DNA from: Bacteroidales bacterium
GTDB lineage: Bacteria; Bacteroidota; Bacteroidia; Bacteroidales; UBA932
DNA length: 36,775 nt
Assembly (NCBI GenBank): GCA_024398075.1
Contig: JAKSJM010000027.1
Location: 1-36,775 of the forward strand
Reading direction: 5' to 3'
In this document: positions 16,115 through 36,775 of the stretch, piece by piece
Numbering within the stretch: position 1 is the first letter of the stretch
How the letters are laid out: each line of letters begins with the position of its first letter
Made by a program: the position numbers and the translations under genes
The notes under the pieces: generated by a model
Seen by the model: the letters and a program-made list of their open reading frames with translations, nothing else
The model's database searches: none
Told to the model about the DNA's origin: nothing

Positions 16115-16188
16115 TGACTCCTACAGGATTCAAACCTGTAACCTCTTGATCCGTAGTCAAGTGCTCTATTCAGTTGAGCTAAGGAGCC
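16115..16188 (-). tRNA. tRNA-Arg (anticodon ACG)
   Basis: The minus strand from 16188 to 16115 folds as a 74-base tRNA. The acceptor stem GGCTCCT pairs with AGGAGTC (one G-T pair). The D arm contains AGCTCAACTGAATAGAGC. The anticodon stem ACTTGA/TCAAG frames the loop CTACGGA with anticodon ACG. The T arm is ACAGG-TTTGAATC-CTGT and the discriminator base is A. The 3' CCA is not encoded. It lies 17 bases after rplS on the same strand and is followed by a terminator, so it is probably cut from the rplS transcript. Confidence 0.95.
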
Positions 16189-34927: not shown

Positions 34928-36220
34928 TTATTGAATATTAGTTGTTTTTACTCTTGGAAACTGAAACACAATGGACAGCACCAGCATGAGTGCTATAAGC
35001 ATTGGATAGTATAGATGACCAATGATCTGGATCGGAGAGAGCGAAGCGAGGCCTGCGGCCATCAGGAGCTGCGCACCGTAAGGGAGCATGCCCTGGATGA
35101 CGCAGGACGAGATGTCAAGCACGCTTGCTGCCCTTCTAGGCGCCACGCCGTAACGTGACGATACGTCCTTCGCAATCTCACCCACAGTGATGATGGCAAT
35201 GGTGTTGTTTGCCGTACATACGTTCGTGATCGCTGTGAGAACGGCGATCACTCCCTCGGCTCCCCTACGACCCGAGATGTGCCTTGTGAGCCTGTCGATG
35301 AGGAATTCAAATCCCCCACATGATTTCACCACGCTCATGAGTCCACCTGCAAGGAGGGTGACGATGATGAGTTCGTACATGCCAGCCAGACCTGCTCCAG
35401 CCGCATTCAGCAGCGATAATACAGTCGAGCCCGTGGCCAAGCCGAGAACCCATGTTATGGCAATGCCGCAGAGCAGCACACACAGCACATTCATGCCACA
35501 AAGCGCCAATACAATAACCAGCACATACGGGATAGCCTTGAACCAAGGAACCGAAGCCGCCATGGCCACATCTCCGGATGGCACATGCCCGAACACGTAA
35601 ATCGCCAGCGTCGCGATAGCTGCGGGCAGCACAATGAGGAAGTTCGTCCTGAACTTGTCCTTCATAAGGCATCCCTGACTCTGCGTCGAGGCGATAGTAG
35701 TATCTGAAATGAAAGAGAGGTTATCTCCGAAAAAGGCGCCTCCCACGACTATGGCGACCATCCACGCCACTTCGGAGCCAGTCTGCTCAGCAAGTCCCGT
35801 AACTACAGGAGTCAGTGCGACAATGGTTCCGACTGAGGTGCCAATGCTCATGGAAATGAAGCAAGCCGCAAGAAAGATTCCTGCCGGCAGGAAAGCGCTG
35901 GGAACAGCGCGTAGAGTGAGCTGCACCGTAGCATCCACTGCCCCGACAGACTTCGCTGTAGCGGCAAATATGCCTGCGAGGATGAAGATCCAAATCATGT
36001 ATAGGATGTCCTTGTTTGCCGCGCCCGCCGACACAGTGTCGATACGTTCCTTCAAGCTCTTGCCCCTCAAGATGCACACAGCATACACTGCAGCCACCAC
36101 AAATGCCACCCCAATGGGCACGGCGTAGAAATCGCCAGCAAGCAGCGACGACGCAATGTACACCACCAGCAGAACAGCCACCGGTGACAATGCCAACAAT
36201 CCTTTCTTCGTACTTATCAT
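34928..36220 (-). CDS. NhaC-family Na+/H+ antiporter-like protein
   Basis: Starting at the ATG of 36218-36220, this encodes 430 residues (MISTKKGLLALSPVAVLLVV...) with about eleven membrane segments. FISMSIGTSVGTIVALTPVV, GGAFFGDNLSFISDTTIASTQ and NNTIAIITVGEIAK are typical NhaC/ArsB-superfamily signatures, with the conserved polar/acidic residues of half-helices. It would exchange sodium for protons or act as an amino- or organic-acid exchanger across the inner membrane. The same frame stays open upstream to 36748, but that part only translates the 51-bp repeats and is not part of the protein. No TAnnTTTG promoter is seen between repeats and ATG, so transcription may start inside or beyond the array. 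Confidence 0.9.
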   Translation of the reverse strand: MISTKKGLLALSPVAVLLVVYIASSLLAGDFYAVPIGVAFVVAAVYAVCILRGKSLKERIDTVSAGAANKDILYMIWIFILAGIFAATAKSVGAVDATVQLTLRAVPSAFLPAGIFLAACFISMSIGTSVGTIVALTPVVTGLAEQTGSEVAWMVAIVVGGAFFGDNLSFISDTTIASTQSQGCLMKDKFRTNFLIVLPAAIATLAIYVFGHVPSGDVAMAASVPWFKAIPYVLVIVLALCGMNVLCVLLCGIAITWVLGLATGSTVLSLLNAAGAGLAGMYELIIVTLLAGGLMSVVKSCGGFEFLIDRLTRHISGRRGAEGVIAVLTAITNVCTANNTIAIITVGEIAKDVSSRYGVAPRRAASVLDISSCVIQGMLPYGAQLLMAAGLASLSPIQIIGHLYYPMLIALMLVLSIVFQFPRVKTTNIQ

Positions 36221-36240: not shown

Positions 36241-36775
36241 TTCTCTCGTGTCCTCTCGTGTTCTCTCGTGCGCAAATCAGCCATCTCTGCGCACCAAACC
36301 TGTCTTCCCGCTCCTCTCGTGCGCAAATCGGCTCTCTCTGCGCACCAAACCTGTCTTCCCGCCCCTCTCGTGCGCAAATCAGCCCTCTCTGCGCACCAAA
36401 CCTGTCTTCCGAGCCCTCTCGTGCGCAAAACAGCCATTTCCACGCACCAAACTCATCCTCCGACACCTCTCGTGCGCAAAACAGCCGCTTCCACGCACCA
36501 AACTCATCCTCCGCCACCTCTCGTGCGCAAATCGGCTCTCTCTGCGCACCAAACTCATCCTCCGCCACCTCTCGTGCGCAAATCGGCTCTCTCTGCGCAC
36601 CAAACCTGTCTTCCGAGCCCTCTCGTGCGCAAATCGGCCCTCTCTGCGCACCAAACCTGTCTTCCGGCCCTCTCGTGCGCAAATCAGCCTCTGCCACGCA
36701 CCAGACCAGTCTTCCGCCATCTCTCGTGCGCAAAACAGCCGCTTCCACGCACCAAACTCATCCTCCGCCACCTCT
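36241..36775. repeat. Tandem array of 51-bp units with internal inverted repeats
   Basis: Ten full units start with CTCTCGTG at 36263, 36314, 36365, 36416, 36467, 36518, 36569, 36620, 36670 and 36721, and an eleventh begins at 36772 and leaves the window. The period is 51 except one 50-base unit (36620-36669). Most units contain GTGCGCA, a 13-base loop and TGCGCAC, a perfect 7-bp inverted repeat. Others have only GTGCG/CGCAC. Left of the first full unit, a 10-base motif ending CTCTCGTG is repeated three times (36241-36270). Units come in two main sequence types with at least two mosaics. No coding function is supported, because the 50-base unit shifts the frame. Confidence 0.95.

Follow-up and report, generated by a model that had tools for sequence, protein, structure and literature searches.

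The tandem array found beside an nhaC-like antiporter gene in a Bacteroidales genome is very probably a non-coding REP-like repeat of a RAYT-like Y1/HUH single-strand transposase, which is encoded on another contig (C65) of the same genome. Comparison of sequences establishes the linkage between this type of gene and the hairpins, the stems private to enzyme lineages, the 50-53 bp spacing and the dispersal of the hairpins.

The window, that is, the whole 36,775-nt stretch of DNA analysed, contains one tandem array, located at 36263-36775 with a period of 51, 10.1 copies and 86% matches (TRF). The tandem-hairpin detector found no second array elsewhere in the window, and 0/22 array-free window tiles were positive. 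The array is composed of ten 50/51-bp units with one hairpin per unit, GTGCGCA-N13-TGCGCAC or variants, and was annotated on the minus strand on the basis of wobble strand and fold stability; the individual hairpins carry no strand assignment. The first-pass annotation had described at least ten head-to-tail units of two types, A and B, and ten hairpins were indeed found, each 5 bases after the claimed unit start, with the arms and tails of both types as claimed. Hairpins 1 (36268..36294), 2 (36319..36345), 3 (36370..36396), 7 (36574..36600) and 8 (36625..36651) are type A, the unit of hairpin 8 being 50 bp long (36625 to 36675). Type B includes hairpins 4 (36421..36447, with two arm mismatches), 5 (36472..36498) and 10 (36726..36752). 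The mosaic units described earlier were also recovered: hairpin 6 (36523..36549) has an A head followed by a B spacer, and hairpin 9 (36675..36701) is a hybrid with the left part of A, the right arm of B and an A-like spacer.

The neighbour gene, which is not part of the element, encodes an nhaC-like Na+/H+ antiporter (PF03553) of 430 aa on the minus strand (34928..36220), with its start codon at 36220. The array had been said to end 20 bases before this ATG, which holds only if the degenerate TCTCGTG remnants located between the array and nhaC on the minus strand (36241..36262, recognized from the sequence) are counted, since the first whole unit lies 42 bp from the start codon. No Rfam family was detected at gathering score over the array. 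The only Rfam match at that score in the window is a tRNA gene on the minus strand (16115-16188).

The right edge of the window is the end of contig C20 (1-36775), where the array is cut. Another contig, C66 (L018), begins with both spacer types of the nhaC array and overlaps the window end by 43 identical bases; these two spacer types were present in 0/12 other array or control stretches checked in the same genome. The shared spacers and the exact overlap suggest that C66 lies beyond the cut end, giving at least about 12 units in total. C66 carries trmO (PF01980 and PF18389) on the minus strand, with its TGA inside a repeat unit (L018:96-122), so that the minus-strand order would be trmO, array, nhaC, the order across the contig gap being deduced from the shared sequences. 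Array sequences were found at the end, or within about 200 bp of the end, of 11 of the 71 contigs of the genome, and such arrays seem to break assemblies. An assembly artefact is an unlikely source of the array because similar arrays recur in many separate assemblies.

The first-pass annotation had named an in-frame coding repeat as one finding that would overturn its element idea. The nhaC frame is indeed open for 179 codons through the array, as expected for 17-aa coding units, but it is broken by the 50-bp unit, several frames are open at once on both strands, and the modal period is 50 or 52 in 28 of the 94 positive homologue loci described below. A coding repeat therefore has almost no chance of being the correct reading.

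The location of the array between trmO and nhaC, two genes of the same strand (with the order across the gap deduced as above), would suit a transcribed structured leader or an RNA switch controlling nhaC, as would the wobbles, 19/19 of which are G-U if the minus strand is read, the greater stability of the minus-strand fold in 2/2 units tested on both strands, and the absence of an Rfam family at gathering score. Such a function is nevertheless very improbable. Hairpins with the same stem occur near unrelated genes, and across families the wobble strand does not track the direction of the linked gene (177 G-T vs 267 A-C). The nhaC gene was inspected in 29 relatives and, bar a few, was without an array: tandem hairpins were found at most 1 kb upstream in 2/29 loci, about 700 bp away, and downstream in three. 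The antiporter-specific switch proposed in the first-pass annotation thus finds no support in the relatives, where the arrays track a transposase-like gene instead. The 51-bp-period tandem hairpins near nhaC in these five relatives have other stems (L220, L228 and L230 downstream; L218 and L232 far upstream), and perhaps the intergenic site near nhaC is favoured by arrays.

A search for GTGCGCA-N(8-20)-TGCGCAC detected 48 sites on 13 contigs of the genome, compared with 0 in the control, which agrees with the earlier expectation that the units of a true element would recur at other loci. The lone site on contig C30 resembles coding DNA, leaving arrays on 12 contigs. Successive hairpins are nearly all 51 bp apart across these arrays, and TRF gave a period of 51 (or 153) in ten of 13 array stretches, that is, in all those where it detects the array. 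Spacers and loops are common within a locus or sub-family and different between sub-families; since spacers repeat within arrays and are not unrelated to each other, CRISPR was rejected as an identity for the arrays. Genes near the arrays are unrelated and include ACT/amino-acid-kinase, IMS-type polymerase, phosphoesterase with SbcD_C, glyoxalase, DUF4332, ATP-grasp, NADH-ubiquinone oxidoreductase 20 kDa, Asp/Glu racemase and M23 peptidase genes. The wobble strand is one-sided in 11 of the 12 loci (25 to 1 in one of them), the exception being C50 (6 to 10); the arrays concerned are, however, related to one another, and some of them form the two halves of a single array.

Other repeats and a small gene were observed next to the arrays of this genome. 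At several contigs (L010 from about 4790, the start of L011, L012, L013, L015 and the start of L006), one array sub-family is followed by a second dispersed structured repeat, about 130 bp long (GGCGAATGGGC...GCCCATTCGCC). A 72-bp tandem repeat directly adjoins the C50 hairpin array (L014:4748-4933), and a small ORF with a helix-turn-helix look, judged by eye, is located beside the end of the C1 array (L005:554-760).

Contig C65 contains an intact open frame of 306 aa, whose product has an HUH motif and a tyrosine of the catalytic type; two arrays of the GTGCGCA stem bracket this gene. The encoded protein passes no family model's curated cut-off, and Pfam Y1_Tnp (PF01797) gave no match in this genome at E<=0.001. 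Homologues of the C65 protein were found at E<=1e-5 in 166 of 200 genomes of the genus, a sample of draft assemblies from a larger group, with three in the genome itself and up to 11 matches per genome (11 being the most scored). For the comparisons, 111 homologue loci were used (L017, L076, L186-L214 and L245-L324), which were drawn from the better-scoring matches listed, together with the homologue from CALYTI, an uncultured Bacteroidales MAG; most matches with internal stops, fragments, weaker or unlisted matches and the duplicates L048, L055, L067, L069 and L185 were left out.

Residues H69, H71, Y127 and N131 are present in 111/111 homologues and W146 in 107/111. The combination used to recognize RAYT/TnpAREP proteins, an HUH motif plus a single tyrosine with N at +4, was found in 111/111. 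The class 2 signature Y---NP was found in only 12/111, the residue after N131 being G in 75, A in 16 and P in 12, and for this reason the enzyme is called RAYT-like and is not regarded as a proven RAYT; it is a remote relative of the REP-associated tyrosine transposases (RAYTs). The homologue of G216, a distant genus member, reads NP and is over the Y1_Tnp cut-off.

The commonest model match among 41 members was NCBIfam REP_Tyr_transpos (24/41 at E<=0.1, best 2.9e-5), and Pfam Y1_Tnp matched 15/41 at E<=0.1 (best 1e-4). A PDB search with a profile of the 41 homologues gave five weak matches, all labelled transposase (best E 0.011), which we take to be of the IS200/IS605 type; in the three alignments shown, the HUH motif is the part that lines up. 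The C-terminal half of the enzyme has no convincing model match, and the single-sequence structure model of the L076 homologue (mean pLDDT 39.9, pTM 0.28) was too poor for use. Outside the genus, only proteins of about 190-207 aa were found at E<=1e-10, in five genomes of the order, with 42-45 bits. All five match REP_Tyr_transpos (NF047646) with E values of 5e-12 to 8e-17, below its cut-off, and four of them match Y1_Tnp, two over the cut-off; alignment of the homologue profile to these five proteins with hhalign gave 98% probability and an E value of 3e-13. In a scan of 295 genomes of the order, strong matches were obtained only in G000 and G216, both of the genus, and the long enzyme apparently is genus-restricted.

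Tandem hairpins were detected within 800 bp of the gene at 92/111 homologue loci vs 4/29 nhaC loci and 0/111 shuffled flanks; 19/111 homologue loci had no tandem hairpin within this distance. When the set was thinned to <60% protein identity, 60/77 representatives were positive. With the period left free from 25 to 100 bp, 94 loci were positive and 91 of them peaked at 50-53 bp, the modal period per locus being 50 (17 loci), 51 (62), 52 (11), 53 (one) or other (three). The period-free controls were positive in 0/22 array-free window tiles and in 4/29 nhaC flanks, three of these at 50-51 bp, indicating that arrays are also found away from enzyme genes, as a dispersed element predicts.

Among 342 neighbouring hairpin pairs, the direct orientation was the better match in 285, the inverted in 45, and 12 were ties. 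The stems were not enriched in GT[AG]G at the 5' foot (7/288 strands vs 16 in shuffled sequences) or in an adjoining CT (103 vs 138). Because the stem detector demands inverted repeats, palindromy is not evidence here; the evidence lies in the agreement between stems up- and downstream of the gene, the loop core and the period.

Where arrays are present on both sides of the gene (53 loci), the stems agree at a mean of 7.55 of 8 positions, with 51/53 loci at 6 or more, whereas stems of different loci agree at a mean of 4.12 of 8 and only 12% reach 6. Comparison of 91 of the 92 positive loci showed that stems are common (>=7 positions) to all 24 enzyme pairs at >=80% identity, to 32% of the 34 pairs at 60-80% and to 1-5% below 60%. 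For pairs below 80% identity the Mantel correlation between stem and enzyme was weak (r 0.16), and it was matched by 0 of 2000 permutations. The 59 representatives carried 50 different central stem 6-mers, and stems differ even between homologue loci of one genome, e.g. G097. By contrast, an A-rich, CGGCC-like, T-rich loop core is kept in both consensus sets examined, each made up of 72 units. These comparisons point to stems private to enzyme lineages and to strong co-diversification of enzyme and stem.

The exact motif was searched for in 41 genomes, including its own, and was found in its own genome only, which led to a search of 200 genomes with mismatches allowed. This search gave matches in 21/200 genomes, including the own one, several of them lone matches resembling coding DNA, while the backward control gave one match in one genome. 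Stems with compensatory changes were found in relatives (GTGAGCA/TGCTCAC, GTGTGCA/TGCACAC, GTGCTCA/TGAGCAC, GTGCCCA/TGGGCAC and GTGCGGA/TCCGCAC) with at most three mismatches and no palindrome search, consistent with the hairpin originally proposed for each unit.

A spacing far more conserved than the sequence, together with the conserved loop core, could also be expected of a protein-binding or chromosome-architecture array, in which about five helical turns would put the palindromes on one DNA face and the linked gene would merely spread the array. The stems, however, vary between loci, even within one genome (G097), a variety that one host factor is not expected to recognize; moreover, they agree on both sides of the gene, and copy number goes with the gene for the one stem tested. 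An architectural role is thus very unlikely.

That one stem was TGTTCC (N18, one mismatch). It gave 21-44 matches in 6/6 genomes with the matching gene (control 0-4), in counts that include the arrays beside the gene, vs 3-10 matches in five other genomes (control 3-12), which is background; in these five no matching gene was seen among their homologues, which were examined in part and, in G016, not at all. Among the hairpins listed, the TGTTCC copies of 16 stretches from three genomes form 15 doublets, one triplet and one single, and sampled dispersed neighbours are 51 or 52 bp apart. Copies at other genomic sites were thus seen for the two stems tested, GTGCGCA and TGTTCC. Several TGTTCC sites have flanks common to different species. 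One TGTTCC site found in G101 is missing from G137, in which the intergenic space is shorter by about 197 bp. A clean empty site was not found, as this sole presence/absence pair differs by more than a doublet. The enzyme locus aligns together with its flanks across six species, with different numbers of hairpins, and therefore seems to have been inherited in place.

Two loci of G101, L327 (C5) and L329 (C12), match each other at 96% over 250 bp, comprising a TGTTCC doublet and about 150 bp of flanking DNA, a likeness that perhaps reflects a recent copying event. A dispersed element of ~90 bp adjoins a TGTTCC doublet in L336 (1207-1298); several genomes contain copies, which reach 93% identity. 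G207 has a 42-bp tandem repeat (L049:1821-1997, 97% matches) that contains a hairpin of its own and is possibly another family with another period.

A pattern scan of other genome contigs gave at least 111 stretches, most of them judged by title as GC-rich chance matches; eight CALYTI and eight Coriobacteriaceae loci were opened. In CALYTI, GTGCGCA hairpin pairs about 50 bp apart are found in eight stretches at different places. L076 in this MAG contains an enzyme homologue with a 50-bp-period array of another stem; among the scan loci compared with the C65 protein it was the only one with a homologue. It was also the one homologue seen in CALYTI, and the enzyme matching the GTGCGCA doublets was not found there. 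Viral contigs gave 17 pattern stretches and no relative of the L076 protein. In uncultured Coriobacteriaceae MAGs (L079, L084, L091, L121, L125, L140 and L147), GTGCGCAC palindromes are part of larger nested inverted repeats, and this different layout perhaps represents an unrelated REP family.

The up to 11 enzyme matches per genome (the most scored), the varied stems and their rapid turnover could alternatively be viewed as co-diversified nuclease-hairpin pairs serving in defence or in competition between elements, and not as transposons. The dispersed doublets resemble spread, however, and no defence-like gene was found among the few flanking proteins annotated, which leaves this an improbable interpretation.

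Under the preferred reading, in which the hairpins are REP-like repeats of the RAYT-like enzyme, mobility would, by analogy with TnpAREP, involve recognition of the hairpin while its DNA, perhaps the lagging-strand template, is single-stranded. Specificity would come from the variable lower stem of 7-8 bp, and common contacts from the conserved A-rich, CGGCC-like, T-rich loop core. The enzyme may cut and rejoin strands between adjacent hairpins, and the constant spacing and frequent doublets suggest that two neighbouring hairpins would be processed jointly. As the hairpins are in direct orientation, cuts at equivalent points could release or add exactly one unit; doublets would then spread to intergenic sites, and arrays would lengthen or shorten by one unit, while unequal exchange or conversion may produce A/B mosaics. 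Cutting at equivalent points of direct hairpins could explain the exact periodicity, the mosaic units and the copy-number differences. At the nhaC site the array would fill the space between trmO and nhaC, so that it is probably transcribed into a series of hairpins whose influence on nhaC would be a side effect at most.

A further proposal, for and against which we find the case about evenly balanced, is that this is a distinct class of REP/RAYT system confined to one genus, in which a long HUH enzyme acts on head-to-tail hairpin pairs at about five helical turns. The loop core and spacing would be fixed and the stem an exchangeable address, with dozens of orthogonal enzyme-address pairs side by side, several per genome. 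About fifty different stems, with one scaffold and spacing in common, are tied to identified enzymes, so that an HUH recognition code could be read by comparison and tested by swapping. The fixed spacing also poses directly the question of whether two hairpins are processed together.

The TnpA proteins of the IS200/IS605 transposons ISDra2 and IS608 presumably have an HUH and tyrosine layout like that of the enzyme described here. The present system differs from these transposons in that no multi-copy insertion sequence was seen and the DNA flanking the enzyme gene is the same across six species. A literature search, conducted mostly outside subscription journals and preprints, found no published description of the long enzyme or of the 51-bp arrays. 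The first-pass annotation had stated that it knew no described element with this unit; this holds only in part, given that REP/RAYT systems are already known and closely similar.

The nearest known kind is RAYT subclass 2.6. According to PMC6006769, REP/RAYT systems (TnpAREP, REPtrons) share with the present one a Y1/HUH gene flanked by hairpins, copies in the genome and a proposed co-evolution, and the Bacteroidetes subclass 2.6 (RAYT group 5) is flanked by atypical secondary structures without GT[AG]G that have copies elsewhere. An NH[LIV]H-type motif and the lack of GT[AG]G are common to that subclass and the system described here; in contrast, its median length is 179 aa vs about 306 aa here, and Y---NP is given for all class 2 vs 12/111 here (PMC6006769). 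The E. coli TnpAREP has the same tyrosine plus N-at-four-residues layout (Y115, PMC8266576; N119, PMC6006769), and it cuts and rejoins single-stranded REP (PMC8266576). Biochemical tests of REP recognition by RAYTs, and of whether RAYTs still mobilize REPs, cover few enzymes, among them three REPtrons (PMC8266576). The differences from REP/RAYT systems in general are the restriction of strong matches to the genus (295 order genomes), the head-to-tail arrays with a 50-53 bp period and the C-terminal half without a convincing model match.

Like the hairpins studied here, the REPINs of Pseudomonas have the doublet as their common dispersed form and ordered clusters beside RAYT genes; according to PMC3116915, however, 93% of their doublets consist of inverted partners, and next-neighbour distances peak at 71 and 110 bp, whereas here 285/342 pairs are direct and 50-53 bp apart. 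BIMEs and GTAG/CGTC palindromes, as described in PMC3733652 and PMC8266576, are likewise short, mostly intergenic and sometimes arranged as tandem or head-tail dimers, but in the present family the GT[AG]G foot is not enriched and the central 6-mers are highly diverse (50 distinct/59 representatives). The best reading is a REP/RAYT-type system of an unusual kind, with a long and apparently genus-restricted enzyme, head-to-tail hairpins at fixed spacing, no GT[AG]G foot and strong enzyme-stem co-diversification.
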